From NCBI RefSeq assembly GCF_001908375.1, contig NZ_CP017244.1, positions 868,001 to 932,000 of the forward strand: a stretch of 64,000 nucleotides of DNA, in the 5' to 3' direction. Below are positions 9,004 to 25,476 of this stretch, one piece after another. This DNA comes from Rhizobium etli 8C-3. GTDB taxonomy: Bacteria > Pseudomonadota > Alphaproteobacteria > Rhizobiales > Rhizobiaceae. Each line of letters begins with the position of its first letter. Position 1 is the stretch's first letter. The notes below the pieces were generated by a model that did no database searches, had not been told where the DNA came from, and was given only the letters and a program-made list of their open reading frames with translations. The position numbers and the translations under genes are program-made.

Positions 9004-10071
9004 TCACGCCTGCAACCGGTACCAGTTGACGATGGTCTTGATTTTCCGACGCAGATCCTTGACGAAGTGGACCTCGCCAAGCTTGAGGACCTGGGCCCGA
9101 TAAGGGGTCTTCTTCAGGTAGCGATAATAGGTCCAGATCAACGGATGCCATCCGTCCGTCGACCAGGGTTTGTTGTGCTCGGTGAAGTGGATGATCTTTG
9201 GTCGGCGCCCTTTTTTTATCTCGGCAGCGGTTGCATAGCAGGGCTTTCCTTCCTGCGGCATCAGCATGCGGCGTTGGACGTTCCACAATATGTCAAGCTG
9301 TTTCCATCGGCTCCAGAAGACAACGTTCAGCGCGCACTGATCACCATATTCCATGTCGTCGATACGCGTTTCCAAAACGGTAATCACTTTGGAAAGATCG
9401 TCACTGGCACGCAGCTTGGCGAGATCCATCAACAGCACACCGGAATTGAAGTAGCCAAGACGCTGGGGCTGCAGCTGAAAGCGCTCGGCGAACACCTCGC
9501 CATCCATGCCGACGTCGCAGACCGCGCCAATTGCATGCTCTCCCAGATCGGATGCATAGAGTTCGCGAACATCACCCATGACGACGAGGTCGGCATCGAG
9601 ATAAAGGACCCGATCGATATCTGGCGGGGCAAGTTCGGCAAGCATCAGTCGGTAGTAGCCGGCGCGGCTGATATGGCGTTTGCCGGGCATTCCAAGGACG
9701 CTTGAGCCTTTGATCTCCAGCCAATCAAAACGATGCCCTTCGCCGCAGCGTTCAAAGGTCGAACGGGCCTGGGGGGAAATGCCATCATGGACCACCAGAA
9801 AACGGAATTTTGCGCCCGGTGCGTTAGCGATAAGCGATGCCAGCACAACAGCTGCATGCGGCAGGTAAGTGGTATCGAGTCCAAAGGCGATTGCCACCTC
9901 CGATGCTGGCGGGCGCGGGCGGCTGTATCGCTGCATTGCTGCCTCAAGTAGAGGTTCGGCAAGGGGGCGGCCGTTCAGGCCCCCGGTGATTGACCGCAAA
10001 CTGGCAGTCTTCATCGGCAAGGCGCCCATGGTAGGAGATGCCAGATTTCCTTCAAATGCGGGATCACTCAT
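9004..10071 (-). CDS. Glycosyltransferase family 8 protein
   Basis: A 355-residue GT8 retaining glycosyltransferase (general stress/LgtC/RfaJ type). The catalytic DXD motif is in YLDADLVVMGDV (residues ~150-160). Flanking family features are IAFGLDTTYLPHAAVVLASL near the start of the domain, YFNSGVLLMDL in the middle and KIIHFTEHNKPW near the end, where the His binds metal or the donor. GT8 enzymes transfer galactose or glucose from UDP-sugars with retention. I use ATG 10071 because GGAGGGG stands just before it; the frame extends eight codons further upstream without a comparable site. It lies between wzx and the GT2 gene, all on the minus strand. It probably builds a side chain of the local polysaccharide. 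Confidence 0.88.
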   Translation of the reverse strand: MSDPAFEGNLASPTMGALPMKTASLRSITGGLNGRPLAEPLLEAAMQRYSRPRPPASEVAIAFGLDTTYLPHAAVVLASLIANAPGAKFRFLVVHDGISPQARSTFERCGEGHRFDWLEIKGSSVLGMPGKRHISRAGYYRLMLAELAPPDIDRVLYLDADLVVMGDVRELYASDLGEHAIGAVCDVGMDGEVFAERFQLQPQRLGYFNSGVLLMDLAKLRASDDLSKVITVLETRIDDMEYGDQCALNVVFWSRWKQLDILWNVQRRMLMPQEGKPCYATAAEIKKGRRPKIIHFTEHNKPWSTDGWHPLIWTYYRYLKKTPYRAQVLKLGEVHFVKDLRRKIKTIVNWYRLQA

Positions 10072-10127
10072 TACCCCTCCATGCGGGAGCCTCATGCTCC
10101 TGTCTCATTTCATCGAACGTTCGCCGC

Positions 10128-11090
10128 TTATTGCCAGCCCGGGTATCCGGTCCAGGCGCGGCGCATGCCAAGCTTGACATAAATCCAGTCCAGGACGGCA
10201 TCGACGACAAGCAGGCCGTTAACACCAAAGCCGGCCTTTGCCAGTGCATCTAAATGCGGTTGCAGATGCTCGCGACCGCGATCTTCGCGCCACCAGGTCA
10301 AAATGCGGCGCACGTAGTGACGGCGAAACGTAAGAAGCTGGCGGCGGTAGTCTGGCCCGAAGGCGACCGGGCCGTGGCGCATGATGAGATCAAGGCCATC
10401 GCGCGTCCAGGCGCGGGTTTTGCCGGCATAATGTAAGGCAGTTACCGTATTTTCGTGAACACGGGTAAAGCCAAGCGCTTCATGCACAAAACCGAAATCG
10501 CTGATGGCCAGCATCCGGAATACCGTATCAAGGTCCCAACTGCCTTCCATGTCACCAGTGAAAAGTGGTTCGAGCGCGTCAGTCACACGCTTGCGCCACA
10601 TCATCTGGACCGGCATCAAAATGCCCTGGCGCAGCAGCGCCATACGCATGGCTTCCTTGCCGGAAAACACCGGCTTGCCGGGTGGCCAGAAGAAATCTTG
10701 AACGCCACCCGCGCAGTCATGCAGGCTGCCAATGACTCCGACATCGGGAAAGGTTTCGCCGAGTGTCGCCATCTTGGAGATCGACGTCGGGCTGATCGTG
10801 TCGTCGTCGCAGAGATAGCGCACATAGACAGCGTCCTGGGGTACGAGGCGATACGCTTGCGTCCAGTTTGCACGCTGATCCAGCGTTTTTTCATTACGGA
10901 AGCGAAGGACAGGGATGCGCCTGTTCAAATAGGCGGAGACAATCTCTTCGGTATTGTCGCTGCTATTGTTGTCGAGAACAACGTGAACAAGATTTGGCCA
11001 ATCTTGCTGCTGGACGGATTCCATTGTTTCAGCCAAGAACCGCCCGCCATTATATGTCGGTGTCACAACGGCGACAAGTGGCATAGACAT
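10128..11090 (-). CDS. Glycosyltransferase family 2 protein
   Basis: A 320-residue GT-A-fold inverting glycosyltransferase. It opens with VAVVTPTYNGGRFLAETMESV and has DNNSSDNTEE and the DXD-like CDDDTIS motif (residues ~90-97) that binds the metal-nucleotide sugar. No membrane segments are obvious, so it probably works at the cytoplasmic face of the membrane. ATG 11090 is preferred, with GGTGGA upstream; another Met lies two codons later, and an upstream in-frame start (11120) adds residues outside the fold. It is first in the minus-strand run GT2-GT8-wzx. Donor and acceptor sugars are unknown. Confidence 0.85.
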   Translation of the reverse strand: MSMPLVAVVTPTYNGGRFLAETMESVQQQDWPNLVHVVLDNNSSDNTEEIVSAYLNRRIPVLRFRNEKTLDQRANWTQAYRLVPQDAVYVRYLCDDDTISPTSISKMATLGETFPDVGVIGSLHDCAGGVQDFFWPPGKPVFSGKEAMRMALLRQGILMPVQMMWRKRVTDALEPLFTGDMEGSWDLDTVFRMLAISDFGFVHEALGFTRVHENTVTALHYAGKTRAWTRDGLDLIMRHGPVAFGPDYRRQLLTFRRHYVRRILTWWREDRGREHLQPHLDALAKAGFGVNGLLVVDAVLDWIYVKLGMRRAWTGYPGWQ

Positions 11091-11423
11091 TGTACATTCC
11101 ACCACGCGAAAGAAATCCAAAGAAGAACTAAAGCTATGTTATAGTTCAGGTGATATTAGTCAACAATGGCTTGGCTTGGAATCCAATTTATTATTACGAT
11201 ACTGTGGATACGCCGTATAGCTGACTATCAAAGATCTTTTGCGCCGTTCCTGTGCTTCTGATGACGGTTCGGCGTCAGCTTGCCGCCCTTGGGAATACGG
11301 CAGGATTTGAAACACAACGCCGCGCCGACCGTTTCGTGAGCGGACGGTGGTACATCGGGCAGACGATAGTCGACAGAACCAGATCAATGCCTTCCATCGG
11401 TCGCCTCACGGTTTTTTCGGCGG
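11091..11423. other. Intergenic region between exoQ and the GT2 gene
   Basis: About 330 bp, AT-rich near 11110-11220, without a supported gene. It should hold the promoter for the GT2-GT8-wzx run (minus strand). A strong hairpin overlaps its right border at the exoQ stop (11419-11438). Confidence 0.5.
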
Positions 11424-11438
11424 TCAAGCGTGACCGCC
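11419..11438 (-). repeat. Perfect 8-bp-stem hairpin over the exoQ stop codon
   Basis: GGCGGTCA-AGCG-TGACCGCC on the plus strand: 8-bp perfect arms with a 4-nt loop, spanning the TGA of exoQ (11424-11426). On the transcribed strand it is followed by an A-run, not a U-run, so it is not a classical intrinsic terminator. It may protect the 3' end of the exoYFQ message. Confidence 0.4.
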
Positions 11439-12722
11439 ACGGCGAGGCACATGGAAACCTTCTTTGCCAGCGAATTGAGAATAGTACCGCACCGAGGCGC
11501 TGCTTGCCGTTCCCGCGACCGGTTTTGCGAGTGCACCGGCACAATAGTAGATGAGGAAGGTTCCGATCGTGTACTGGTTGAGAAAATCCACCTCGAAAAA
11601 GGAGCGACCGATGAACAGTATGACGATACCGAAGAGGATCACGTCCTCGTCTCGCGCGCCTGATGACAGGAGGCGTCTGATGTATCCAACGAGGAGGCCA
11701 AGAATAACGGCGCCGAGCAAGACCAGCCCGATATAGCCGAGTTCGACCGCGGCCTCGATGTAGGTATTATGAAAGTGAAAGCCCGCACGCGAGGCAATGT
11801 AGAATTGCTGCCACAAGACCTCCGGTTGGGAAAAGCCCTGGACCCAAAAACCCTGAAAACCGAGGCCGAAGATCGGTTCGTCGTGTGCGATTTCGATACC
11901 GCGCTGCCAAAGATATGTCCGGCCTGTCAAGGTCGCATCCTTGCCGAAGACGCCGAGGATGGCGCCGAACAGCCCGCTACTCAGCGCAATTAGGAGTCCG
12001 ACGGCTGCTGCTGGAACGATAGACAGGAAGAGGACAGTCCTGTGTCGCGGTGAGAACCGCTTCAAAAAGACCGCAGCGACCGCTACGGCGATCGTTGCGG
12101 CGATCGTGATCGTAGACGTCGCCGACTGGGCGGCGTGCAACGAAAAGGCGCCGAAGACGCCGGACATCAGGGCCAGGATGCGCCAGATCATCTGCACGCG
12201 CAGAATGAAGACCAGCGAGAAGGAGGCAAAAACGCCGAGCGCGGCAAACATGCCGAGTTGGTTCTTCGACGCGAAGGCGCCGATGAAGCTGTAGACGCCA
12301 TCAAGAGGATCGTAGCTGAAGTGTCCAAACATCAGTGAGTAGAGCAGCACCAGCGATGCGCCGAGGCTCATTCCCAAAACCATCGCCTTTACAGGCACGA
12401 CCCGTGCAGCAATCAAGGCGCAGGCAATCGTTGAAAGATATTGGAGTCCGCCGCGCAGGCTGAGCCCCGGAACCGCGGACCAAAAAAAGGACAGGCACGC
12501 AAAGATGGAAAAGGCAAAAATCCAGTAGAAAGGCCGTGGATCTCCGATGACTGCGCGCGGATCCATGGCAAGAAGAGGCAGCCACACGAGATAGAACAAC
12601 AAAATGAAGACAGAGCCAAACAGTTGCGCATAGGCGATGAAAAACATCGTCGCGATCATAGCAGAGATCGCAAAGGGGGCGTTCTGTCCGGGTGATAAGA
12701 AAGCGTTGATGCTGATACGCAT
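11424..12722 (-). CDS. exoQ: ExoQ-like exopolysaccharide polymerase (O-antigen ligase/Wzy family)
   Basis: A 432-residue integral membrane protein with about ten hydrophobic segments and the Wzy/WaaL-type large periplasmic loop. The loop holds LTGRTYLWQRGIE, FGLGFQGFW and FHFHNTYIEAAVELGYIG, the motifs of the O-antigen polymerase/ExoQ family (PF04932). ExoQ polymerises undecaprenyl-linked repeat units into high-molecular-weight polysaccharide in the periplasm. I use ATG 12722. A GTG at 12767 would overlap the exoF stop by 23 bp and is an alternative. It is the third gene of exoY-exoF-exoQ, the same order as in Sinorhizobium, which supports the name. A hairpin covers its stop codon. Confidence 0.88.
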   Translation of the reverse strand: MRISINAFLSPGQNAPFAISAMIATMFFIAYAQLFGSVFILLFYLVWLPLLAMDPRAVIGDPRPFYWIFAFSIFACLSFFWSAVPGLSLRGGLQYLSTIACALIAARVVPVKAMVLGMSLGASLVLLYSLMFGHFSYDPLDGVYSFIGAFASKNQLGMFAALGVFASFSLVFILRVQMIWRILALMSGVFGAFSLHAAQSATSTITIAATIAVAVAAVFLKRFSPRHRTVLFLSIVPAAAVGLLIALSSGLFGAILGVFGKDATLTGRTYLWQRGIEIAHDEPIFGLGFQGFWVQGFSQPEVLWQQFYIASRAGFHFHNTYIEAAVELGYIGLVLLGAVILGLLVGYIRRLLSSGARDEDVILFGIVILFIGRSFFEVDFLNQYTIGTFLIYYCAGALAKPVAGTASSASVRYYSQFAGKEGFHVPRRGGHA

Positions 12723-12744
12723 GCCGACCTGCCGACCCCAAGTC

Positions 12745-14034
12745 CTATGATTTTTCGTTGGTGACACTGACCTTGACCAAGTCTCCCGGCTGCACGGGGG
12801 TCGTTTCGGTCGCTGGAATCTCCTGTATCTTGCTGGCGACTGTGCGCACGATCGAATAGCTGATGAGCCTGTCGGCGTCGCCTCCGGTCAATTGCGAGGC
12901 CATTGGCGCATTCACCAGCGCCTCTGCCATCAGTTGGCGATACATCTGAAGCTGCAGCGCATTTTCATCAAGCTGCGACTTCGTTTCCTGCATATCGAGC
13001 GCAATCTTGGATTTGCGCTCATTCTTCAGATCGATCGTGTCGAGTGCGGCCTTATTCATCTCCTGCTTGGCGCGCAGCGAGGCAGCATCGAGGTCGAGCA
13101 GGTTGCTCTGGGTTTCGGCAAGCGTCGTCTCCAGGCCCAGCGCCCGGGAACTGACTGCCAGGCCCTGATCGACGAGCTTGGCAGTCTTTTCAAGCTCCCG
13201 CTTGTAAAGGTCCACTTGCCGTGTCTGGTTGTCGACCTTCTTGCTGAGCGAGGTGATTTCGTTGCTGTAGAGGGTTTGCAGCTCATCAAGCCCTTTGAGG
13301 CGAAGGTCGAACGCGTTCCGGTTCGTTTCCATGATTGCTATTTCATCCTCGATCAGCGTTTGCGATTGCGCGATGGCGGCAAGGTCTTGGGGAACCGCAA
13401 TCTTCTCCTTGCCGGCAGCCTCGGAGGCAAGTCGCGCCTTCTTCGCCATCAGACGGGCGCGCTCGGCGACCAGCACCTCGTAGCTGCCCCTGGCGTTGAT
13501 GAAGTCCCGTTCGAACCGCTGACCTTCGTGCAATCCGCGACGCATGCCGCCCGCAAGGCTAATCGCTTTGAGAACAGTCATCTCCGGATCGTAGGGGTAT
13601 TTGCCGGGCGTGTGGACTTCGCCAGCTACGAAAATCGGCCGGAATTCCAGAATCTCTACCGAAGCTTCGGGCGGATTGGCAAGCCCGAAACGCTCCTGGA
13701 GAGCGCGTGCGATCTCGTGCGCCACCTCAGAGGTCGAGCGACCGGTGACCTTCAGCTCACCGGCAAACGGCAGAGCGAGATCGCCGTTCGGACCGACGAT
13801 GTATTCGCCTGTAATACCCGGCCACTCGCGAAACTGCCCCTCGGCAGTTTGCCATTCGACCACGCGGACGGACAGCTTGTCCATGATTCCAAGCTTGTAG
13901 GCATCAGCGCGCGCAGCCGACAGCAACGCCGGTTGAACAAGACAGACGACTGCGGCAAGTATTGCAAGGCACAGCCGCGGTAACGCGTAAATGGCGTTAG
14001 GCGCGGCAAGTGAAAGCTGACGAACTAACCTCAT
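12745..14034 (-). CDS. exoF: ExoF-like periplasmic/outer-membrane polysaccharide export protein
   Basis: A 429-residue protein with a Sec-type signal peptide (residues 1-~43, hydrophobic core LCLAILAAVVCLVQPALL). A Poly_export/Wza-like domain follows (GEYIVGPNGDLALPFAGELKV near residues 75-95), then an SLBB repeat (IFVAGEVHTPGKYPY). After this comes a long coiled-coil region (about 190-370), characteristic of ExoF rather than Wza. It would form the export conduit with ExoP. ATG 14034 has AGGAAAG upstream. It lies 39 bp after exoY, with exoQ directly downstream, so the three form an operon. In Sinorhizobium meliloti ExoF is needed for succinoglycan production. Confidence 0.9.
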   Translation of the reverse strand: MRLVRQLSLAAPNAIYALPRLCLAILAAVVCLVQPALLSAARADAYKLGIMDKLSVRVVEWQTAEGQFREWPGITGEYIVGPNGDLALPFAGELKVTGRSTSEVAHEIARALQERFGLANPPEASVEILEFRPIFVAGEVHTPGKYPYDPEMTVLKAISLAGGMRRGLHEGQRFERDFINARGSYEVLVAERARLMAKKARLASEAAGKEKIAVPQDLAAIAQSQTLIEDEIAIMETNRNAFDLRLKGLDELQTLYSNEITSLSKKVDNQTRQVDLYKRELEKTAKLVDQGLAVSSRALGLETTLAETQSNLLDLDAASLRAKQEMNKAALDTIDLKNERKSKIALDMQETKSQLDENALQLQMYRQLMAEALVNAPMASQLTGGDADRLISYSIVRTVASKIQEIPATETTPVQPGDLVKVSVTNEKS

Positions 14035-14073
14035 GGTTCTTTCCTATCTTCGCCTGGCAAAGGCGTGGGCGTG

Positions 14074-14757
14074 CTAGCGGGCACCCCGTGCGAACAGGAC
14101 AACCGGCACGGTTTTCAGGATGATCCAGACGTCGCCGACGAAAGACCAGTGCTCAACATACTGGCTGTCGAGCTGAACGCGCTCTTCGTAGCTCGTGTCG
14201 CTTCGCCCGCTCACCTGCCACTTGCCGGTGAGACCGGGGCGCGAGCGAAGGTAGTGACTTCCGCGATCACCGTAACGGACCATTTCCTCGCCCATGATCG
14301 GACGAGGTCCAACAAGGCTCATATCGCCGCGCAACACATTGAGCAGTTGTGGTAGCTCGTCGAGACTGAGTTTTCGCAGCACCTTTCCGGTGGCGGTTAC
14401 CCTGATGTCGTGACGCAGCTTGCGCGTCGTCGCCCATTCAGCAAGGGCGGCGGGGTTTTCGGCGAGATAGGCAGCAAGCCGCGCATCGCTCTCGGTAACC
14501 ATGGTCCGGAATTTCAGGCAACGGAACGACTTTCCGTTGTGGCCAATGCGCTGATGACCGAAAAGAACGGGGCCGCGATCATCAAGCTTTACGGCAATCG
14601 CGATCAGCAAGAACAGCGGGGAAAACAGGACGAGCAAAACCAGGGCGCCGACAATGTCAAACACCCTCTTGCGCAAACCGCCCAATGGCCTCATTGGCCA
14701 CTGGGTGTAATGCGAGAAAATAGAGGCATCGGCTAGATCGATATCATGCTTCATCAT
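14074..14757 (-). CDS. exoY: ExoY-like undecaprenyl-phosphate galactose-1-phosphate transferase
   Basis: A 227-residue priming sugar transferase with all family motifs. These are a membrane anchor (residues ~31-57), [16 protein letters not shown] (82-86), [12 protein letters not shown] with the catalytic Asp133-Glu134, [10 protein letters not shown], and [13 protein letters not shown]. ExoY transfers galactose-1-phosphate from UDP-galactose to undecaprenyl phosphate, the first step of succinoglycan assembly. ATG 14757 is preceded by GGGGAG; the next codon is also ATG. It heads the exoYFQ operon. It contrasts with the altered paralogue at 5516-6190. Sugar specificity (galactose rather than glucose) is inferred from the operon. 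Confidence 0.9.
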
Positions 14758-14987: not shown

Positions 14988-15776
14988 TCACCCCGGCGTC
15001 GGGTCCCAGAGCTTCCATGGCGCATTGCCGCTCTCCCAGGCCTTCTCGAGCACCATTTTGTCTCGCAGCGAATCCATGCTTTGCCAAAAGCCCTGGTGCC
15101 AGTGCGAGCCAACCTTGCCCATGTGAAGCGCTCTTTCCATCGGACCCTCTTCCCAAACGGTGTCATCGCCCTCAATGAGGTCGAAGACGTCAGGCTCGCA
15201 GACAAAGAAGCCACCGTTGATCAGACCGCCATCGCCAATGCGTTTTTCGCGGAAGGCATGGACCCGAGTTCCGTCGTCAGACAGCCCAAGTGCGCCGTAG
15301 CGGCCCGGTTGGCTGACGGCGGTCAGCGTGATCCAGTTAGCGTCCCTCTCATGAAGCTCAATGGTTGCAGCGATATCGGTATCGGAGACACCGTCGCCAT
15401 AGGTAAGGAGGAACCGCCTGTCGCCGATGACGTCGCGGGCGCGCCTCAATCGTCCGCCAGTCATCGTGTTCAGTCCGGTATCGAGCACGGTGACCCTCCA
15501 CGGCTCTAGCGCGCGGCGAAGCCACTTAAACTCGCCCGTCGCTAGGTCGACTGTGAAGTCGCTGTTGATCATCGCATAGTTGATGAAGTAGTCCTTGATG
15601 TAATCCGCCTTGTAACCGGCAAGCACAACGAAGTCGTTGAAGCCGTAGTGCGAATAGATCTTCATAATATGCCAGATGATCGGCCGCCCGCCGATCTCGA
15701 CCATAGGCTTTGGCCGAAGCGTAGTCTCCTCCGAAAGACGGCTCCCGTAGCCTCCTGCAAAAATGACAACTTTCAT
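14988..15776 (-). CDS. rfbF: Glucose-1-phosphate cytidylyltransferase
   Basis: A 262-residue nucleotidyltransferase that makes CDP-glucose from CTP and glucose-1-phosphate, the first step to CDP-deoxyhexoses. The N-terminal nucleotide-binding signature is VIFAGGYGSRLSEET, then RPKPMVEIGG with the catalytic Lys. LTYGDGVSDTD carries the metal-binding Asp, and NGGFFVCEP and EEGPMERAL also match RfbF. Length equals the family norm (~257). ATG 15776 has GAGGG upstream and places the signature at residue 4. It is followed by exoY (230 bp on) and preceded 70 bp away by a sugar epimerase gene, probably in one unit. No CDP-glucose 4,6-dehydratase (RfbG) is visible, so the next step must be encoded elsewhere or done by the epimerase-like neighbour. 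Confidence 0.92.
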   Translation of the reverse strand: MKVVIFAGGYGSRLSEETTLRPKPMVEIGGRPIIWHIMKIYSHYGFNDFVVLAGYKADYIKDYFINYAMINSDFTVDLATGEFKWLRRALEPWRVTVLDTGLNTMTGGRLRRARDVIGDRRFLLTYGDGVSDTDIAATIELHERDANWITLTAVSQPGRYGALGLSDDGTRVHAFREKRIGDGGLINGGFFVCEPDVFDLIEGDDTVWEEGPMERALHMGKVGSHWHQGFWQSMDSLRDKMVLEKAWESGNAPWKLWDPTPG

Positions 15777-15846
15777 TGCGTCCCTCGTCATTTGAATCGT
15801 TGCCCGCCATAGGCGGTTTTAAAGTCACTGTGTCACATGAACCGGT

Positions 15847-16959
15847 TCAGCCAGACATGGCTTCGCGCGTTTGAAGAGCCGGATCCTTGAAACCAGGAAT
15901 GGAACCAAGGTCGGACGAATTGGCCGTGTAGCGCAGGTCGGTACCAAGGCTGCCGCCGTCGATTGCCTGTGTAAGCACGTTCAACCGCACGAGTTGGGAA
16001 GAGCGGTAATCGGGATCCTTCAAGCCCGCCGCAGCAAGGCCGTTTTTGAGATCGGCAATAGCGCCTGCAAGCGTTACTTCTGGCTGATGGGCCGGTGCCA
16101 GACTCCGGTATAGATCGAAATTAACCCGATAAGAGCGCCGGTCCGGTGGAGCGTCCTTGTTGATTTCGACCACCGTGCCCGCAACCGAGGCGGCGACGGC
16201 CTCCGCGAGCTCGCGGACCTGATAGTTCCAGTCCTCGGAACCGACGTTGACGGCCAGAAAGTTTGCGCCATCCCGCCTGAGCAGCGCCCATTCGATTGCC
16301 CTTGCCATGTCGTTGACATGAATGAGCGGACGCCAGGGCGTGCCGTCAGAGAGGACCGAGACGCGCCCGGTCTTCAGTGCCGAGGCCACAAAATCGTTAA
16401 GGACGAGATCGAGCCGGGTACGTCCCGAAAAGCCGCACGCAGTCGCGAAGCGCAACGCGCTGACCGTCATCTGGCTGTTGCGGGCAATCTCGCCAAGCCC
16501 GATCTCGGCCGCAACCTTCGAGCGCGAATAAGCGGTCAGAGGGTTAAGATCATCTGCTTCGGTGCGCGCGCCGCCCTCGGCAAAACCGTACATTGAGCAG
16601 CTGGAGGCAAATACAAAGCTTCTGACGCCCATCCTGGCGGCGAGCTCGGCTGTCCTGAGTGTGGCACGATGGTTAATCTCGTCAGTCACTGCCTCAAAGC
16701 GGCCACCCATCGGATCGTTGGAAACGGCTGCCAGATGCACGACCGCATCGACGCCCTCGAATAGCTCGGCAGGCAGATCGCGGACATCGGCAAAGACCTG
16801 ACTATTAAGCAAACGCTCAGGCAGGTTTGCTTGGGTGAGGCAGTGCGCGAAAAGGCCAGTATCGACGCCGACAAGCAAGCAATCAGGCATCGCACGGCGC
16901 AGGTGAGAGACGACAGCAGGCCCGACATAGCCCATGTTTCCTGTGATCAAGATCTTCAT
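15847..16959 (-). CDS. NAD-dependent nucleotide-sugar epimerase/dehydratase
   Basis: A 370-residue extended short-chain dehydrogenase. The NAD(P)-binding motif ILITGNMGYVGPAVV differs slightly from GxxGxxG. The next conserved blocks are VVHLAAVSNDP, the catalytic Ser/Tyr/Lys arrangement SSCSMYGFAEGG ... YSRSK (Tyr and Lys near 150-155), and GRTRLDLVLNDFV. This subfamily often sits beside glucose-1-phosphate cytidylyltransferase, as here (70 bp upstream of rfbF), so it likely acts on a CDP-sugar. Whether it epimerises, reduces or dehydrates is not decided by sequence. ATG 16959 follows GGAGCG; a TTG two codons earlier is an alternative. It lies downstream of exoP on the same strand. Confidence 0.82.
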   Translation of the reverse strand: MKILITGNMGYVGPAVVSHLRRAMPDCLLVGVDTGLFAHCLTQANLPERLLNSQVFADVRDLPAELFEGVDAVVHLAAVSNDPMGGRFEAVTDEINHRATLRTAELAARMGVRSFVFASSCSMYGFAEGGARTEADDLNPLTAYSRSKVAAEIGLGEIARNSQMTVSALRFATACGFSGRTRLDLVLNDFVASALKTGRVSVLSDGTPWRPLIHVNDMARAIEWALLRRDGANFLAVNVGSEDWNYQVRELAEAVAASVAGTVVEINKDAPPDRRSYRVNFDLYRSLAPAHQPEVTLAGAIADLKNGLAAAGLKDPDYRSSQLVRLNVLTQAIDGGSLGTDLRYTANSSDLGSIPGFKDPALQTREAMSG

Positions 16960-17065
16960 TTTCAAACGCTCCGGAACTGGTAACTGTCATTGAAAATCGG
17001 CATGGCGCAAACCAGAATTGCTTCACACCAACATTGCATCGGATCAGTGCTACTTGCGCGTTTCG

Positions 17066-19456
17066 CTAGAGCTCCTTCGATAGCTGCGCGCGCGACTTTC
17101 GCCGCCTGCGGCCTCGCGCCTTCATGATGGGCTCGCCCTGCTCGAGGTAGTAGCTCGCATATCGGGAGTAGAGCTTCTCGGAACTGCCAAGGCCGCCATA
17201 GGTCGAAAGCTTCTCCTGATCTGCCTTGTTGAGCACGACCCCCAGCAATTTCGCTGCTATTGCCGGCTCTTGTTCAAGTGTTGACTTCAAAAGGGCTCGT
17301 GGTGTGCCTCCCCATTCCGACACGAGCAGGAAACCATCGGCCAACGGCTCGAAAGCCTTGGCGTCGAAGACTGGCCCGATTGGTGGAAGGTCAACGATTA
17401 TGTAGTCGAACATGGAGCGGGCCTCTTCTAACAGAGCTGCCATGGAAGGACCTGAGATCAGCTCGCTCGTGTTGAAGACCTTAAGCTGGCGCGGTGTCGC
17501 GAGAAGGCTCGCACCCGTCTGCGGATCGACAACCAGGGTATCTTGCCATCTCGTTGCCCCGGCCAGCGCCTCCGTCCAGCCGGTCTCAAAGTGGATGCCA
17601 AGACCCTGCGTCAGTGATCCGCGTCTGAGATCAGCATCGATCATCAGCACCTTGGCTGGGCTGGAGGCCACGAGCGTCGCAAAGTTTGCCGCGACTGTCG
17701 TCTTGCCTTCGCCAGGCAATACTGAGACGACGCCGATGACCTTGCAGTTCTGGCTGCCAAGCATCGTGTCGGTCACGATCTTTGCGTGCCGTAGCGTCTC
17801 GGTAAACTTGGTGCCGCCCGATTTGACCGCAAACCGCATGGTCTCGACATCGGGATTGGCGATCAGCTTTCTTTCGTCATCGGGGGAGGGACGCGTGGCT
17901 CCAGGGATCGGCGGCAGATAACCGAAGAACTTCAGGCCGAGCGCCGTAAATTCCTCGCCAAGGCGGAACGTGCCTTCCCTAATCTCGCGCCACAGGCCAA
18001 GGCCGATACCGAAGATCGCGCCGAGTACCAGCGAGCCACCAAGCGTCAGGGTGCGCTTGGGGCTGGATGCCTCGGCCGGCGGCGAGGCAGGCGAGATGAC
18101 GCGCGCTTCTGATATCGGAAACGACTGGTTCTGGGCCGTTTCCTGATATTTCGTCAGATAGGTCTTGTAGAGGTCGCTGATGGCTTCGGCGTTGCGTTCG
18201 AGGTCCTTCAATTGCACGAGCGATTCATTCGCCGCCGAGGTTTGTCCGGTAATCCTCGACAGTCCCTCCTTCAGCGATGCCTCGCGCGAGAGGGCAACCT
18301 CATACTGATTGCGGTAGCTTTCCGTCATCTGCTTGAGCTCTAGAAAGATTTGCCGCCCGATGTCATCCTGCTCCTTACGCAGCGTGATTGCCTGCGGGTG
18401 TTCGGGGCCGAAACGGCCTTCGATCTCCTGAGCCCTCTTGATGACCGTCAGGTAGCGCGCTCTGAGCGTCGAAATGACTGTGGAGCCTTCCTGCTCCGAG
18501 ACGGTCGCGGCATTGTCGACTGCAGTCTGCTGGCCGGCGGCGACGATCGCTTTGTACTGATTGTAAAGCGCGAGTGCCTTTGCGCTGTCCGCCTGGGCCA
18601 GGATGTACTGGCCACTGATGTCGGAGAGCTGTTCTTCCGACAAGAGGGCACCTTTTGCTGAAGTGAGGCCGTTTTCCGTGCGGTAGCGTTCGACCTTCAG
18701 GGCCGCCTCCTGCGACTGGTCCTTCAGATCGGTCAGCCGAGCGCGCAGCCAGACCGTCGCCCTTTGTGACGCGTCGAAATTGGCATCGAGCTTGTCTGAC
18801 AGATAGGCTTCGGCATAGGCGTTAGCGATCTGCGCCGACAAGGTGGGGTCCGTCGAAGTGTAGTACAGGTCGATCACGAAACTCTGCGGTTGCTGCTCGA
18901 CCCTCAAATTGTCCATGAGAACTGCCACGGCAGTGCCCTTGCGCGCATCGAGGCTATCGGCATCTGCCATCTCTGTGCCTATGCCGGCAAACACGTCCAT
19001 CGCCATCTTGCCAAGGCCCTTGATCTGCTGGGTGACCGAGAGTGGAGGACTTATGAATTCGCGCTTTTCGTAAAGCTTCTGTCTGTCGACTACTTTTGCA
19101 GCAAGCGAGCTTGACCTCAAGATCGCCACCTGGCTCATGATCTTCTTGTCAGATTCCATGTTTGCAGGTGCCGGTGAAACGTCTCCAGCAAACCGGCTCA
19201 GATTGTCATCGATGAGGACGCTCGTGCCTGCCGTGTAATAATAGGTTGCAAACACCAGACGGGTAACGCCGAGCAGCAGGCCGATGGCGGCAAAAAGGAC
19301 GACGAGCTTTGCTTGACGCCTGGCGATCTGTATCAGGCGGTCGACGTCTATGAACCTCTCATCGCCGGCTTCCGGCTGCTTGGCCGTGCCCGGCGGGCCG
19401 AGATAGGGGCGTAGTGCTTCCTGCATCATCTTTGCCTTGCCTATGAACTCGTTCAT
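17066..19456 (-). CDS. exoP: ExoP-like polysaccharide co-polymerase with tyrosine autokinase domain
   Basis: A 796-residue inner-membrane protein of the Wzc/ExoP family. It has an N-terminal Wzz domain with a membrane segment at ~50-72, a periplasmic coiled-coil region (roughly 200-440), and a second membrane segment at ~475-495. The cytoplasmic BY-kinase domain has Walker A GEGKTTVAANFA, Walker A' VLMIDADLRRGS and Walker B YIIVDLPP. A tyrosine-rich tail (Tyr in STYGG, KLYSRYASYYLEQ) is the usual autophosphorylation cluster. It controls chain length and works with ExoQ and ExoF. The ATG at 19456 overlaps the stop of the 43-codon exoM remnant (ATGA), pointing to translational coupling. Confidence 0.92.
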   Translation of the reverse strand: MNEFIGKAKMMQEALRPYLGPPGTAKQPEAGDERFIDVDRLIQIARRQAKLVVLFAAIGLLLGVTRLVFATYYYTAGTSVLIDDNLSRFAGDVSPAPANMESDKKIMSQVAILRSSSLAAKVVDRQKLYEKREFISPPLSVTQQIKGLGKMAMDVFAGIGTEMADADSLDARKGTAVAVLMDNLRVEQQPQSFVIDLYYTSTDPTLSAQIANAYAEAYLSDKLDANFDASQRATVWLRARLTDLKDQSQEAALKVERYRTENGLTSAKGALLSEEQLSDISGQYILAQADSAKALALYNQYKAIVAAGQQTAVDNAATVSEQEGSTVISTLRARYLTVIKRAQEIEGRFGPEHPQAITLRKEQDDIGRQIFLELKQMTESYRNQYEVALSREASLKEGLSRITGQTSAANESLVQLKDLERNAEAISDLYKTYLTKYQETAQNQSFPISEARVISPASPPAEASSPKRTLTLGGSLVLGAIFGIGLGLWREIREGTFRLGEEFTALGLKFFGYLPPIPGATRPSPDDERKLIANPDVETMRFAVKSGGTKFTETLRHAKIVTDTMLGSQNCKVIGVVSVLPGEGKTTVAANFATLVASSPAKVLMIDADLRRGSLTQGLGIHFETGWTEALAGATRWQDTLVVDPQTGASLLATPRQLKVFNTSELISGPSMAALLEEARSMFDYIIVDLPPIGPVFDAKAFEPLADGFLLVSEWGGTPRALLKSTLEQEPAIAAKLLGVVLNKADQEKLSTYGGLGSSEKLYSRYASYYLEQGEPIMKARGRRRRKSRAQLSKEL

Positions 19457-19584
19457 TGCGACACCCGCCTAACGGCCGAGACAGGCGTCTGCAGCGCCAT
19501 TGCCGCTGGCTTGATGCGTGCCGCTCTGAGCGAGCCCCACGGGTATGTGCAAACAGCGATTTCGATGAGAAGTGGCCGGCTCAT
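19453..19584 (-). pseudogene. exoM: exoM remnant: 43-codon frame coupled between exoA and exoP
   Basis: A 43-residue frame whose ATG overlaps the exoA stop (ATGA, 19581-19584) and whose stop overlaps the exoP ATG (ATGA, 19453-19456). Its first residues, PLLIEIAVCTY, match the start of ExoM, the succinoglycan glucosyltransferase (recalled as HIDIGVCTYRRP). After that Tyr the match stops, and about 29 unrelated residues follow. In Sinorhizobium the order is exoA-exoM-exoO-exoN-exoP, so this is the expected place for exoM. The simplest reading is a deletion from early exoM through exoO and exoN that kept an open frame, and with it translational coupling into exoP. It is unlikely to be an enzyme. 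The identification rests on about 11 residues plus position. Confidence 0.7.
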
Positions 19585-20579
19585 GAGACGCTCCTTCTTG
19601 GACCAAGCGACAGCATCTCGAGCCAGAAACCCGTTGACCAGGCTACATGCATGACCATAGCAAGTAGCCCGGCCAATGGTCCGTGGGGCATTTGCTGGCG
19701 CACGCGAAGGTAAAAACCATAGCCGATACAGGTGAACGCCCAGGCGAAAGCTGGGACGATGGCTGCCCAGTAAAACAGCGCGAGCGCAGTGCCGGCAACG
19801 GCGGGCGCGACTGTAAGCGGCAGCATTTGGCGCAAGGCTGGCATCGTCTTGTGTTTGCGAATATTGCGCGCCCGTCCGCGGCCGTAATTGAGGTATTGAC
19901 AAAACAGCGCGCCAACGCTTGCGCGCGGATGATAGATCATGCTTGTCTTGCCGCTGATCCAGATCCTGTAGCCGGCCTTCGTCAGGCGGAAGTCGAGTTC
20001 GGCATCTTCATTATGGGAAAAGGTCTCGTCGTAGCCTCCAACGGCGAGAAAGGCGCTGACGCGCATCAAAGCGTGGTGTCCGTGGTCGACGTAGCGACCC
20101 GTCGATTGGTTGCGATGGGCAGAACCGCCGTTGCCGATCTTGGAGTTCTGTGCAATCGCCGCTGCTTTCTGGAATGTGTTGAAACCAGTCGTCTCCAAGG
20201 CGACGACGACGGAGGCAGCAGCGGTCATCTCGGCATCGGCAATCAGCTGCTGGCAATAATTCCTCGGATATTGACCATGGGCGTCCATGCGGACGAAATA
20301 GTCAAAATCACGGCCGTAGCGTGCCACGGCAAGATTAATCGCCGCACTTTGCAGGCGCTTCGGATTGTCAAGGAAGATGATGCGCGGATCGATGGCGCAG
20401 GCGGCCTTAATGATATCCTGCGAGCCGTCCTTGCTGCCGCCATCGGCCACAACAATGCGCCAGCCCGGCGCTTGAAGCTCCGTGCTCAGATCGTTCAGAA
20501 GCGCACCGATGTAGTTTCGTTCGTTAAGGCATGGAATGACGATCAAGCAGCAATCTTCTGGGCCCCCGTGCTTATTCAT
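19581..20579 (-). CDS. exoA: ExoA-like beta-1,3-glucosyltransferase (GT2)
   Basis: A 332-residue membrane-associated GT2 protein of the succinoglycan ExoA type. Its blocks are [44 protein letters not shown] (DXD-like) and the acceptor-side blocks [19 protein letters not shown] and [13 protein letters not shown]-terminal hydrophobic segments lie at ~245-320. In Sinorhizobium ExoA adds the second sugar (glucose, beta-1,3) to lipid-linked galactose. ATG 20579 follows an AGGA element and places the first strand at residue ~10. Its TGA overlaps the ATG of the exoM remnant. exoK lies 118 bp upstream on the same strand, although exoL, normally between them, is absent. Confidence 0.88.
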
Positions 20580-20697
20580 CGCGTTCAATCCTGTATGGCA
20601 AATGACGAAATGATCGGAAAGTGACCTGATGTCTTGCGAGGCGGCTTTCGCCAAGTGGGATCGTACAGATCGTGGACCAGGTAAAACACAGGCGCCA

Positions 20698-21567
20698 TCA
20701 AAGGTTCTCCTGCTGATTTGCAGGGGCGCTGACGGTGATCGTGCCGTCGCAGGTCACAGAGCCTGCAAACAGACATCTTTCGCCCGTAGCGGTAAAGCTC
20801 ACCCAGTCGACCTGCATGATCACCGGTCCTTTGTAGGCAAAAGGGCCCATCCAGCCTGTCAACGTATCGGTTCCCCACAGGCTAAAGAAGATTTTCTGCC
20901 TTGCCGTCGGAATGCGGAGCGGATCGGTAATCTCGTTGACGAGGAGGCCGTTTACGAAGAACCGCAGTCTGGAGGGCTCCCAGGTAAAGGCGAAATGGTT
21001 GAATTCCTCGTCGGCCGGACCGGCGAGCGAAACGAGCTTTTCGTTGCCGCCCTTCGCCTTCACATATTGGTTGACCTGGACAGCAGCACTGTTCTTCCCC
21101 AGCACCTCGAAATCAATCTCGTCGTGTTCCTCATGGTCGGCGGGGCCAATATAGGAGAAGAACGCCGAGTTGATGCCTGACCCGGTCGCCGTCTTTATCC
21201 GTGCCTCGTAGGTACCATAGCCGTAGCGCTGCTTCGTCTGGATTTCTGCGCATAGCAGGGCCTTCTGATCGATAGTGTCCTTTGCGAGCATGAGCGAGGC
21301 AAAGCCATCTGCAATCTTAAGCATTCTCGCCGACCAGATGCAGTTCTGGTGATCACCGTTCGTCCAGCCATCTGAAATATACCAGAAGTTGGGGTCGAGG
21401 CGGTCAAAGCTCTCCAAGAACGACGCTCCAGGGCGCCCGTCCGCGGCCCCGACGTTAGGAGCAAACCAACATGTCAGCAAGATCAGTGAAAGGATGTGCC
21501 GGAAAATGCAACTGAATCCCCGACCCGTAGCTGCACGGTCAGCATGTGAAGATTGATTGAAATTCAT
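20698..21567 (-). CDS. exoK: ExoK-like endo-beta-1,3-1,4-glycanase (GH16)
   Basis: A 289-residue secreted GH16 glycanase. A signal peptide covers about residues 20-42 ([21 protein letters not shown]). The catalytic motif is [10 protein letters not shown], containing the E-I-D-F-E nucleophile and acid/base pair. [20 protein letters not shown] and WDPSR-like [12 protein letters not shown] blocks are also kept. ExoK cuts nascent succinoglycan to low-molecular-weight forms. Its presence implies the local polymer still contains suitable beta-glucan-type linkages. ATG 21567 is chosen for the signal peptide, although the ribosome-binding site is weak. It is the first gene of exoK-exoA-(exoM')-exoP; exoH and exoL of the classical operon are not in this window. 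Confidence 0.9.
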
Positions 21568-22021: not shown

Positions 22022-22753
22022 CTAGTCGTTGAAGGTCGGCGTTGTCGGCCGTGCTGGCCGCATGAAAATTTCGGTCACTTCACAGGTGGACGGCATCGAC
22101 AAGGCTGAGATCAGGTTTGCTGCCACCGATTCCGGCTGCAACAGCTCGTCTGACTGGTAGAAAAGCGCCCTTGCATCATGGATAGTTTCCTGCATCGGCG
22201 TTGCGGTCTTGCCGGGAAAGATGCTGAGGACGCGCACGTCCTGATTGTTGATCTCGGCTCTCAGGACGTCGGCGAATGCCTTCAGGGCATACTTACTCAT
22301 CGTGTAACCCGCAAGATCGATTTTCGGATTGAGCCACACGCTTGAGTTGATGAATGCGATATAACCCTTCTGTCTGGCCAGTGCCGGGAGAAGGAGCTGT
22401 GTCAGAACATAGGGAGCGCGCAGATTGACGCGCCAGACGTTATCGAGTTCATCCACCGGGCTTTGCGCAACCGGGCCTGAACGAAAGACGCCAGCACTGT
22501 GCACGAGGTAATCGATGCCGCGTTCGCTCACCCGCAAACGGGCGACGAATTCGGCGATGGCCCGGTCATCGGCAAGATCGACGTGATGCCAGCTGATCGA
22601 TGCTCCATTGCTAAGGGACGACGGAGGGACGCCGCCGCGGGTAAGAGCATGAACGGTCACGCCGGCTCCACCGAAGGCCGAAACGATCGCCTGACCGATA
22701 CCGCCCGCTGCCCCGGTCACCACTGCCACGCGCCCCTGAAGAGATTTTTCCAT
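22022..22753 (-). CDS. Short-chain dehydrogenase/reductase (SDR)
   Basis: A 243-residue classical SDR. The NAD(P)-binding motif is VVTGAAGGIGQAI (residues ~11-23), the structural motif is HSAGVF (in place of NAG), and the active-site pair is YTMSK (Tyr and Lys near 158-162) with an upstream Ser in INSSVW. It reduces or oxidises a carbonyl or hydroxyl on an unknown substrate. TAGGAG stands just before ATG 22753. It starts 6 bp after the DUF4910 gene, so it is the last gene of the operon aminotransferase-(small frame)-methyltransferase-DUF4910-SDR. The context suggests a role in making or finishing a modified sugar; that is inference. Confidence 0.85.
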   Translation of the reverse strand: MEKSLQGRVAVVTGAAGGIGQAIVSAFGGAGVTVHALTRGGVPPSSLSNGASISWHHVDLADDRAIAEFVARLRVSERGIDYLVHSAGVFRSGPVAQSPVDELDNVWRVNLRAPYVLTQLLLPALARQKGYIAFINSSVWLNPKIDLAGYTMSKYALKAFADVLRAEINNQDVRVLSIFPGKTATPMQETIHDARALFYQSDELLQPESVAANLISALSMPSTCEVTEIFMRPARPTTPTFND

Positions 22754-22759
22754 GATCTC

Positions 22760-24070
22760 CTAGGTCCTCTGTGCCGGTGCAAGTAGATCATGGCCAATCA
22801 GAAGATCGGCGGCATCGGCGATCAAATCAAACGCAAGACCCGATTTTGTGGCGATATCGAGGAGATCATGTCTGCCGTCCGAGTAGTTTAGAACCCAGAG
22901 CAGGGCCATCTGACGTATCTTCGTGTCGGATTTTCCGCCGACGGCATCATAAAGCCCGCGTTTTCCAAGTTGCGGCTCGCACATCGGCGAAAGGTTCAGG
23001 AAAGCTCGGTTGCGGTCAAGTGTTTCGAGCACGGAGGCGTAGGTATTGAGTGAGTGGGCAAGCGCTTCAGGCTTGATGAAATCAAGGTTGTCGGCCGACG
23101 TATGGTACTCAGCAAACCGCCCGTAGGGTGTGCGCGACAGACAGCCGAAGGGAAGGTTGATGCCAGGTGAGCTGAACTGCCTTTCGTCATAGCCATAGGG
23201 AGCAAACGCCATAATCGAATGGGGTTGTCCCGCTGACTTCAGCACATGTTCCACAACCCGATCGATCTCAGCCGTCTCGTGACGGCTCTTCTTATAATGA
23301 AGCATCCCGGGATCGCCGAGGTTGACGGCAATAAGACCATGTCTGATGCACGACAACCGCTCGCGGTTCGTCGAAAGCCAGGCAATCGAACCGATGGTGC
23401 CCGGAATGAAGAGCAACCGCACGGAATAGCGCCGCTGTGCCGCCATCAAAAGCTTGGCAAGCTCGACACAGACGGCGATGCCCGACAGGTTGTCGTTGGC
23501 AAGTGATGGATGGCAGATATGGGTCGAGATAACGATTTCGTCGGTCGTGGTACCGGGGATGAAACATTCGCCCCACAGAAGTTCGCCATCTGAAAGTGTT
23601 GAGTCTATCAGGACCTCGTAGGTTCCTTCGCTCATCGCCTCCAGGGCGTTCTGGGAGAGGCAGAAGCCCCAGTCTGCCTTGTAGTAGGTCGTCCGGTAGG
23701 GGATCCAGGCGGGATGGGCGGGGTCGGTGTGCAGATGAAGCTTCAGTGCATTAAGCGGCAATGTCGCGCGGATCGGTCGGGAATAGTTGACGACGTGCAG
23801 ATTGCTTGCTTTGAAGTCGATGATCCGGTTGCCCTTCTCGTCCTTCACATAGGCATCGCGGATGCTCCATTCCTGCGGGACGGTCCAGTCAAAGATCTGC
23901 GTGCCGCTTGCTATGCGATGAATCGTAACCGGAATTTCCTGCCTGATAATCTCAAGGGTCTCGACGACGCCCGGACCGGTGATGCTGCGACAGATCGGAA
24001 AAAGTCGCTCGATGAGGGCAGCCATCCGCGCGCCGGCAGGCTCCTTGTCTGTCGCGCTGACGGCGCTCAA
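22760..24070 (-). CDS. DUF4910 family protein with aminopeptidase-like (M28-type) fold
   Basis: A 436-residue protein of the DUF4910/DUF2172 family. An M28-like metallopeptidase core (STHICHPSLANDNLSG near residues 185-200, likely metal ligands) is followed by a C-terminal winged-helix-like part (about 350-430). It starts with LFPICRSITG, a family hallmark. Members occur in polysaccharide and nucleotide-sugar clusters of many bacteria; their reaction is not established. Hydrolysis of an amide on a sugar precursor is a reasonable guess. The start may be TTG 24070, which overlaps the methyltransferase stop (TTGA), or ATG 24025. The next gene follows after 6 bp. No signal peptide is seen, so it acts in the cytoplasm. 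Confidence 0.8.
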   Translation of the reverse strand: MSAVSATDKEPAGARMAALIERLFPICRSITGPGVVETLEIIRQEIPVTIHRIASGTQIFDWTVPQEWSIRDAYVKDEKGNRIIDFKASNLHVVNYSRPIRATLPLNALKLHLHTDPAHPAWIPYRTTYYKADWGFCLSQNALEAMSEGTYEVLIDSTLSDGELLWGECFIPGTTTDEIVISTHICHPSLANDNLSGIAVCVELAKLLMAAQRRYSVRLLFIPGTIGSIAWLSTNRERLSCIRHGLIAVNLGDPGMLHYKKSRHETAEIDRVVEHVLKSAGQPHSIMAFAPYGYDERQFSSPGINLPFGCLSRTPYGRFAEYHTSADNLDFIKPEALAHSLNTYASVLETLDRNRAFLNLSPMCEPQLGKRGLYDAVGGKSDTKIRQMALLWVLNYSDGRHDLLDIATKSGLAFDLIADAADLLIGHDLLAPAQRT

Positions 24071-25305
24071 GCAACGACCTCGACATTGGGAAGCGGAACG
24101 ACAAACTGGCTGCCCAAGCCTTTGAGCTCCGACATTTGGCTGATGATCTCATCCTTGATGTTCCAGGGCAGGATCAAGACGTAATCGGGCTTGGTTTCTG
24201 CAATCTTTTGTGGTGCGTGGACCGGGATGCGGGTGCCCGGAAGCAAGTGGTTCTGCTTGTGAGGGCTGACATCGACAGTATATTCGATAAGATCCGTACC
24301 AACGCCGCAGAAATTCAAAAGCGTGTTGCCTTTTGCCGGAGCACCATAGGCGACAACGGTCTTCTTGCTTTCCTTTGCATCGATCAGAAATCGCAGAAGA
24401 TCGCGCTTGGAGCGGTGGACCTGCTCGGAAAATTTGCTGTAGCGTTGGATAGAATTGACGCCGCCTTCAATTTCGCGGGCACGCAGTTCATCTACACGCA
24501 CCGAGACCGGCTGGCTTTGATCTTCGGCGTGGCGAGCATAAATGCGCAACGATCCCCCTTGTGGAGCGATCTCGTCGACATCGAAGATCGTCAAGCCGTG
24601 GTGGGCAAAGATTTTCTCGACACTAAAAAGTGACAGGTACGAATAGTGCTCGTGATAGATCGTATCGTAGTAATTGAGCTCCAGCATCTTCATGAGATGC
24701 GGAAACTCGATCGTTGCGATGCCGGTTGCCGACAATACGATCTTGATGCCGGCAACAAAATCGTTGATGTTGGGGACATGCGCCAGCACGTTGTTGCCGA
24801 TCAGCAGGTCGGCGGTGAGACCATCGCCAACCAACTGCCGTGCCGTCTCCACACCGAAGAACTGTACCCTGCTCGGGATGCCGGCCTCTACCGCGACAGC
24901 CGCGACGTTGGCACATGGTTCTATGCCGAGCACCGGAACGCCGCGTTCCTTGAAGTTTTTCAAAAGATAGCCGTCGTTGCTGGCAATTTCGATTACCTGG
25001 TGGCCCGAGTCGAACTGAAACCGCTCGACCATATGATCAACATATTCGCGCGCATGTTTCAGTACCGAGGCCGAATAGGAGGAGAAATAGGCATACTCGC
25101 TGTCGAAGATGTCTTCGCGCGGCGCCATGGGAGGCACCTGGACCAGGAAGCACTCGTCGCAGACGAACGCATGTAGTGAAAAGAACGGTTCGGCGTCCTG
25201 CGTTTTGTCGACGGCGATATAGGAGTTTGCAAGCGGTGACGCGCCAAGGTCGACGACCGTCTGAGTGAGAGCGGTGTTGCAAAACCTGCAGTTGAATGAA
25301 GCCAT
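24067..25305 (-). CDS. NDP-sugar C-methyltransferase-like SAM-dependent methyltransferase
   Basis: A 412-residue three-part methyltransferase. The N-terminal zinc-binding domain has CRFCNTAL ... CDECFLVQ, four Cys. The central SAM-binding Rossmann fold has VIEIASNDGYLLKNF (residues ~105-119). A C-terminal Methyltransf_14-type domain contains VVAYGAPAKGNTLLN. This is the architecture of TylC3/NovU/EvaC sugar C-methyltransferases, which methylate C-3 of NDP-4-keto-6-deoxysugars. EHYSYLSLFSVE, with the active-site His, is also typical. ATG 25305 follows a G-rich site. Its stop overlaps the DUF4910 start. With RfbF and an RfbC-type epimerase nearby, the likely substrate is a CDP- or dTDP-keto-deoxyhexose. 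Confidence 0.87.
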   Translation of the reverse strand: MASFNCRFCNTALTQTVVDLGASPLANSYIAVDKTQDAEPFFSLHAFVCDECFLVQVPPMAPREDIFDSEYAYFSSYSASVLKHAREYVDHMVERFQFDSGHQVIEIASNDGYLLKNFKERGVPVLGIEPCANVAAVAVEAGIPSRVQFFGVETARQLVGDGLTADLLIGNNVLAHVPNINDFVAGIKIVLSATGIATIEFPHLMKMLELNYYDTIYHEHYSYLSLFSVEKIFAHHGLTIFDVDEIAPQGGSLRIYARHAEDQSQPVSVRVDELRAREIEGGVNSIQRYSKFSEQVHRSKRDLLRFLIDAKESKKTVVAYGAPAKGNTLLNFCGVGTDLIEYTVDVSPHKQNHLLPGTRIPVHAPQKIAETKPDYVLILPWNIKDEIISQMSELKGLGSQFVVPLPNVEVVA

Positions 25306-25371
25306 GATCTTCGTCCCCCTAGACGAAACGATACGGTGAAGAATTGGTTGAAACGCGGCTCCAAGAGACGT

Positions 25372-25464
25372 TTAGCTTTGCGGATCGGTTTGCAGAAGAA
25401 CAACTGCCGGCAAAGCATCGTCCATGAGTTTCAGGCTTCTTGGAAATGATACGTGGTGAAGCAT
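25372..25464 (-). CDS. 30-residue frame with strong ribosome-binding site
   Basis: A small frame of 30 residues beginning MLHHVSFPRS, between the aminotransferase stop (25477) and the methyltransferase start (25305) on the same strand. GGGAGG stands seven bases before the ATG, a better site than several real genes here have. The peptide has a mildly hydrophobic middle (ALPAVVLL) and no recognised family. It could be a genuine small protein, a translational-coupling leader for the methyltransferase, or the start of a gene truncated by deletion. Translation is uncertain. Confidence 0.35.
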   Translation of the reverse strand: MLHHVSFPRSLKLMDDALPAVVLLQTDPQS

Positions 25465-25476
25465 CGGCAAACCTCC

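Follow-up and report, generated by a model that had tools for sequence, protein, structure and literature searches.

A 43-codon remnant fusing exoM with exoO, likely a translational bridge between exoA and exoP, in a second exo cluster of Rhizobium etli 8C-3

We analyzed a 64-kb stretch of Rhizobium etli 8C-3 (C4:868001-932000, hereafter the window), taken from a 7.3-Mb genome assembled in 4 contigs and 99.99% complete. The window carries an exo-type polysaccharide cluster, called here the second cluster because the same genome holds further exo genes on its largest contig, C1. Between exoA and exoP lies a frame of only 43 codons (Table 1). The original prediction described this frame with ATGA overlaps at both ends, and this was confirmed: on the minus strand (19584..19453), it shares an ATGA with the exoA stop at its own ATG and another with the exoP start at its own TGA, leaving exoP still overlapping an open frame behind exoA, as had also been predicted. 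About 20 codons come from the N-terminal part of ExoM; the in-frame continuation, about 23 codons, derives from the ExoO end. The proposed ExoM-like start was borne out, as the first 14 residues agree with ExoM of R. mongolense subsp. loessense at 14/14 positions and with that of R. sullae at 13/14. A two-part DNA alignment of the remnant with the intact exoM..exoO region of R. mongolense USDA 1844 gave 116/131 matches, whereas 2000 shuffles averaged 39.7 and none exceeded 57; an alignment with one break point gave 129/145. No match to an exoM, exoO or exoL homologue was found elsewhere in the window. Judged from these alignments, the 43-codon frame is a deletion remnant that fuses exoM and exoO. 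The remnant ATG is preceded by a Shine-Dalgarno-like AAGGAG within exoA; the weaker motif before exoP, AGGCGG, differs among relatives (AGACGG, GAGCGG, AGGTGG). By eye, the break points show no long direct repeats (at most 2-3 shared bases), no systematic search having been made.

The second cluster was compared across 13 loci including the window. The closest plasmid records were R. gallicum IE4872 (L022), Rhizobium sp. 007 (L023), CC1099 (L024), R. gallicum M101 (L025), R602sp (L026) and R. sullae WSM1592 (L027). A contig scan of genomes added USDA 1844 (L031), a second R. sullae (L032), R. mongolense subsp. loessense (L033) and AFS086096 (L034), and a search of the genus (148 genomes) added two more distant loci, G120 and R. 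leucaenae (G013), whose ExoP proteins are 63-65% identical. Seven of nine extra stretches were records already named and were counted once. All loci other than the window were found through ExoA or ExoP and not through open frames, and the deletion state of each of the 13 was read as open frames. The window is syntenic with IE4872 and WSM1592 over about 30 kb, with most proteins 82-98% identical; one protein, at 27231-28010, is 61-77% identical in these two.

Both exoM and exoO are intact in four of the 13 loci, with 314 and 323 codons in USDA 1844 and the two R. sullae loci and 312 and 320 codons in AFS086096. In two others exoM is intact and exoO is short (102 codons in loessense, 132 in G120). 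The remaining seven carry a fused exoM::exoO frame, of 43 codons in the window, 40 in each of five gallicum-type loci and 61 in R. leucaenae; the gallicum-type scar consists of ExoM 1-34 and the last 6 residues of ExoO. Nine of the 13 loci have lost exoO or both exoM and exoO, by what look like five deletions. Every one of the 13 loci has an open exoA, of 326-332 codons, and an open exoP, of 784-798 codons.

The comparison with relatives settles the extent of the deletion, which had been described as the loss of most of exoM and all of exoO and exoN. Most of exoM and of exoO is indeed missing, the end of ExoO is kept, and exoN was not involved. The right-hand part of the frame derives from exoO alone. 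In the four loci with intact exoO, no exoN lies between exoO and exoP, and exoN was rejected as part of the deletion; the ExoN homologue of this genome is at C1:3453484 (64%), and the sole weak ExoN match in the window is a cytidylyltransferase at 14988-15791.

The short frame could instead be an independent small gene whose ExoM-like start arose by chance or by domain reuse; it is open and has a good Shine-Dalgarno-like AAGGAG. However, in syntenic intact loci exoM accounts for one end and exoO for the other, with alignments far above shuffles, the gallicum-type peptide drifts fast (see below), and among 5.8 billion predicted proteins a word-based search (E <= 1) returned only this frame and a 40-aa protein of R. 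azibense with the same sequence as the R602sp scar. We rejected this explanation as highly improbable, mainly on the exoM/exoO origin of both ends. An assembly or sequencing artefact is equally hard to credit, given the contiguity and completeness of the genome, the listing of the 43-aa protein on 3 contigs and the presence in relatives of similar yet different scars; no observation in its favor was found.

A second remnant lies on the other side of exoA. The original prediction did not include this in-frame exoL remnant across exoA, nor the other in-frame deletions of the relatives. It is 1,077 nucleotides (nt), a multiple of 3, shorter than the region of the 394-codon exoL of R. gallicum, and its alignment gives 98/119 matches against 53 for the best of 2000 shuffles. 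In 12 of the 13 loci exoL has 393-401 codons, and it is cut only in the window.

The lengths of the deletions were examined relative to the reading frame. Measured from the exoM ATG to one fixed position in exoP, the interval is 1,919 nt in both R. sullae and USDA 1844, where the genes are intact, and it is shorter by 1,774 nt in the window and by 1,783 nt in the gallicum type. Both values are 1 mod 3, which is the offset between the exoM and exoO frames, so the exoM frame is joined to the exoO frame. The exoO deletion of loessense is 663 nt, a multiple of 3. R. leucaenae differs from G120 by 1,151 nt, of which 1 nt falls in the gap before exoP (gaps of 5 and 4 nt); after correction, 1,150 nt is 1 mod 3 and in phase. 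All of the deletions that could be phased therefore keep the frame (5/5, four events in the exoM/exoO region and the exoL deletion of the window). In a random-deletion simulation on the USDA 1844 and R. sullae sequences (n=20,000 each), the frame remained open to exoP in 33% of cases, and early stops fell at a median of 426 nt upstream of exoP. The chance of 5/5 in frame is about 0.4%; leaving out the exoM-exoO frame of the window, which was noticed for being open, it is 4/4 and about 1.2%.

A separate observation concerns G120, whose exoO (L148, reverse strand, 13539-13937) aligns only to about residue 108. Its DxD-like motif is gone by eye, and the 132 codons stay open to 5 nt before exoP.

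Constraint on the remnant peptide was evaluated from the 40-codon scar shared by R602sp and IE4872. In this scar 88.5 nonsynonymous sites carry 7 changes, compared with 8 in 761 sites for exoA and 30.5 in 1,810 for exoP (Fisher p = 3.5e-4 and 1.3e-3, respectively), and the scar and exoA have similar synonymous rates (p = 0.58). Within the scar, the nonsynonymous and synonymous rates of this one pair do not differ (p = 0.30). No stops or frameshifts were found in the five gallicum-type scars.

Where stop and start codons overlap, a terminating ribosome can reinitiate at the start, and a lack of translation upstream causes polarity. We propose that exoL, exoM and exoO became dispensable in the second cluster. 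Frame-breaking deletions would then end translation far upstream of exoP and cut its expression, so in-frame deletions would have persisted while frame-breaking ones would have been removed by selection, exoP presumably needing the bridge. The remnant peptide itself would have no function. The 43-codon frame is thus read as a fused exoM/exoO remnant that likely serves only as a translational bridge carrying ribosomes from exoA to exoP, a reading to which we assign a probability of roughly 0.7.

Several points weigh against this reading. The AGGCGG motif, although weak, is exoP's own Shine-Dalgarno-like sequence, and coupling may be non-essential. The events are few, and the G120 exoO lesion could not be phased. 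Fast drift of the scar was seen in one pair only (R602sp/IE4872). The exoM-derived parts show no excess of amino-acid change against the intact USDA 1844 exoM (3 synonymous and 0 nonsynonymous changes in IE4872 codons 1-33, 6 and 4 in R602sp codons 1-33, 4 and 3 in window codons 1-19), and the ratio of nonsynonymous to synonymous substitution rates (dN/dS) is 0.26 at the beginning of the exoL remnant, these comparisons also spanning time that predates the deletions. The window and R602sp share CCG (Pro) at codon 15 (19540-19542); Pro is also present in the R. azibense protein, and the other gallicum-type scars and the intact exoM of USDA 1844 and R. sullae have CGG (Arg). Parallel change, recombination or shared ancestry are possible causes. 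Finally, exoL and exoM mutants of S. meliloti, like exoA mutants, make no succinoglycan (PMC1403797), which argues against a simple shortening of the product.

The shared codon 15 bears on whether the window and gallicum-type scars had one origin. Each scar retains codons that the other has lost, so neither derives from the other. Both could be derived from one larger ancestral exoM::exoO remnant of at least 34 + 23 codons, trimmed separately in the two lineages, and the complementary retained codons and the common CCG would fit such a parent. This would require one additional event, and the tree also speaks against it. In the best tree of five genes (13 loci, 5,991 columns), gallicum is grouped with R. 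mongolense, including the intact USDA 1844, and the window lies outside, although this fork is weak (58/97). An approximately unbiased (AU) test marginally rejected the window and gallicum as one clade (p = 0.040). We consider the ancestral remnant unlikely. The fewest changes of deletion state on the tree are 3, with G120 and R. leucaenae left out; as the states were assigned by us, this count contributes little. Whichever holds, the lesions of loessense, R. leucaenae, G120 and exoL count as separate events.

Fourteen intact genes of the second cluster have dN/dS values of 0.04-0.26 against IE4872 and WSM1592, so the cluster is still maintained. The succinoglycan set (exoY, F, A, L, M, O, U, W, V) is incomplete in the window, where exoL, exoM and exoO are remnants and no homologue of ExoU, ExoW, ExoV, ExoH or ExoZ was detected at E <= 1e-5. 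A Wzx/Wzy-type set is present by sequence only, with an exoY-like gene for the initiating transferase, an exoT-like one for the flippase, an exoQ-like one for the polymerase, an exoP-like one for the co-polymerase and an exoF-like one for export. The second cluster is likely to make a polymer other than succinoglycan and, since ExoU, ExoW and ExoV are missing, it probably never built succinoglycan.

The genome also encodes relatives of the lost proteins. On C1, open frames 59%, 55% and 50% identical for exoL, exoM and exoO lie beside exoA; the second exoA of the genome is at C1:3026712. A 19.9-kb stretch of C1 also contains exoQ, exoF, exoY, exoX, exoU, exoW, exoH, exoK, exoA and exoP; ExoV, ExoT and ExoI gave no match in this stretch, whose edge cuts exoQ. 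The earlier suggestion that the locus no longer builds the standard octasaccharide does not follow, the remnant being in a second cluster and homologues of exoL, exoM and exoO being on C1.

These copies provide the main alternative to pruning of the polymer, namely that ExoL, ExoM and ExoO can be supplied in trans from C1. The losses would then be neutral losses of duplicates, with the C1 proteins serving both polymers and the keeping of frame being luck. The open C1 homologues, the continued constraint on the rest of the second cluster and the need of the S. meliloti polymer for ExoL and ExoM are all in its favor. However, exoA is duplicated as well and is nevertheless open in all 13 loci, the losses are nested in pathway order, and the frequency of in-frame deletions would be fortuitous. 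We hold neutral loss to be possible but less likely than not; supply in trans by itself is compatible with selection on the frame.

The order of loss was compared with the S. meliloti pathway, in which, according to the available part of PMC4496566, ExoA, ExoL, ExoM and ExoO act in series. An exoO mutant of S. meliloti forms insoluble material of polymerized four-sugar subunits (PMC1403797, available part). Across the 13 loci the losses are nested, comprising O, then M and O, then L, M and O, and never A, which is the reverse of the biosynthetic order, with the caveat that exoM and exoO are also neighbors on the DNA. Despite the second exoA on C1, exoA is kept even in the window, which has deletions on both its sides. 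We infer, with less certainty, that the repeat unit of the second polymer may have been shortened from its far end, by loss in reverse pathway order. Unless later steps changed or other copies helped, the S. meliloti phenotypes do not fit simple shortening. It is only tentatively, then, that we suggest that several Rhizobium lineages trim the repeat unit by losing its last-acting glycosyltransferases in the order O, M, L through frame-preserving deletions, each leaving a short ribosome bridge that would keep the co-polymerase ExoP translated. Five phased in-frame deletions and nested losses make these surroundings more interesting than the scar itself.

As a side observation, exoM of loessense (L033, 11059-12000), whose exoO is shortened, has a dN/dS of 0.50 against USDA 1844, and R. 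sullae exoM has 0.21 in the same comparison. This is suggestive of relaxed constraint on exoM after the loss of exoO.

We compared the second cluster with known exo systems. The succinoglycan genes exoHKLAMONP of Sinorhizobium (S. medicae ml29, L029) have the same K-L-A-M-O-P order, and in ml29 exoA/exoM and exoM/exoO overlap, a further likeness. Unlike S. medicae, the window has no exoN, exoU, exoW or exoV homologue apart from the weak ExoN match noted above, has sugar-nucleotide, GT2 and GT8 genes of its own, and has exoL, exoM and exoO only as in-frame remnants. The second cluster of R. gallicum, R. mongolense and R. sullae is syntenic with that of the window and differs in the state of exoM-exoO, which is intact in R. 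sullae and USDA 1844, shortened in exoO alone in loessense, and fused at another point in the gallicum type. R. favelukesii OR191/LPU83 has two exo clusters, one of them eroded, according to the available text of PMC9048898; the eroded cluster is an E. meliloti-like exoPOO'MLKHTWV with an exoA pseudogene on an accessory plasmid, and in contrast to the window, that text describes no in-frame bridging remnants. Among the matches listed from open-licence PubMed Central text, no title or abstract opening dealt with in-frame exoM/exoO remnants or with this second cluster.

Standard-type loci were surveyed by keeping the best 80 of 398 relatives, of which four belonged to the second cluster (L031-L034) and 76 were others; these were assessed by alignment spans, not frame by frame. 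Matches to exoL, exoA and exoM were present in 76/76 and to exoO in 75/76, the exception (L104) ending inside exoM; the L044 and L104 stretches stop short of exoP. Eight loci from two other genera (394 genomes; ExoP 52-55%) had exoO matches up to the limits of their short flanks. Among the loci surveyed in these ways, in-frame deletions are found only in the second cluster. Split matches in L088 and L090 may be assembly frameshifts or lesions. L101 (UBTF01000015.1) contains exoL, exoA, exoM and exoO and has no exoN or exoP match in the next 8 kb (after 7200), where no N occurs.

Gene loss from operons is usually observed only once its traces have vanished. In this case sister species still show the intact, the partly cut and the fully fused state, with break points placed within a few bases, which makes it testable whether translational coupling limits the operon deletions that persist. 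If the trimming reading is true, the overlapping starts and stops of the operon would act as a filter on which deletions survive. A second testable question is whether loss of far-end transferases gives rise to new bacterial surface polymers. Rhizobial surface polymer matters in plant infection, and a shortened second polymer could affect symbiosis. For annotation, a "hypothetical protein" of about 40 aa can be an in-frame remnant instead of a gene.

The coordinates of the features are collected in Table 1. The ExoA-like glycosyltransferase of the window is 58% identical to S. medicae ExoA, exoP encodes an ExoP-like transport protein, and dN/dS against R. gallicum is 0.07 for exoA and 0.08 for exoP. 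The sugar-nucleotide module around the exo genes comprises a glucose-1-phosphate cytidylyltransferase (TIGR02623), an NAD epimerase, a short-chain dehydrogenase/reductase (SDR), a DUF4910/DUF2172 protein, a C-methyltransferase and a class III aminotransferase, and it may point to a branched cytidine diphosphate (CDP) sugar in the second polymer.

Table 1. Features of the second exo cluster in the window, with the evidence for each.
Feature	Coordinates	Strand	Evidence
43-codon fused remnant, exoM start and exoO end	19453..19584	-	translation, two-part alignment, shuffles
exoM-derived part, ~59-61 nt	19526..19584	-	best split at nt 59-61 of frame
exoO-derived part, ending with the native exoO stop	19453..19525	-	matches exoO end in L031, L027
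AAGGAG, Shine-Dalgarno-like, before remnant ATG, within exoA	19591..19596	-	sequence
AGGCGG, weak Shine-Dalgarno-like, before exoP ATG, within exoO-derived end	19465..19470	-	sequence
exoL in-frame remnant, 37 codons, start overlapping exoK stop (TGATG)	20585..20698	-	length, alignment, shuffles
exoA, 332 aa from ATG 20579, kept between both remnants	19581..20579	-	homology
exoP, 796 aa, start overlapping remnant stop	17066..19456	-	TIGR01005, 506.2 bits (cut-off 411.7)
exoK (glycanase)	20698..21567	-	NF052392, 374.9 bits (cut-off 350)
exoQ-, exoF- and exoY-like genes	11424..14757	-	tblastn 46-56% to S. medicae; syntenic in R. gallicum, R. sullae
GT8 and GT2 glycosyltransferases, same cluster	9004..11120	-	Pfam; 89-94% in IE4872, WSM1592; dN/dS 0.09-0.17
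Sugar-nucleotide module around exo genes	14988-16965 and 22022-26898	-	TIGR02623 for the cytidylyltransferase

Three further stretches were observed in the window. An ExoX-like stretch (49%) lies at 4856-5056 (-) and a second ExoY-like protein of 224 aa, 34% identical to ExoY, close to it at 5516-6190 (+); both are also present in IE4872 and WSM1592. An acyltransferase-3/SGNH fusion adjoins the cluster at 28756-30660 (+), is 94-96% identical in R. gallicum and R. sullae, and may decorate the second polymer.

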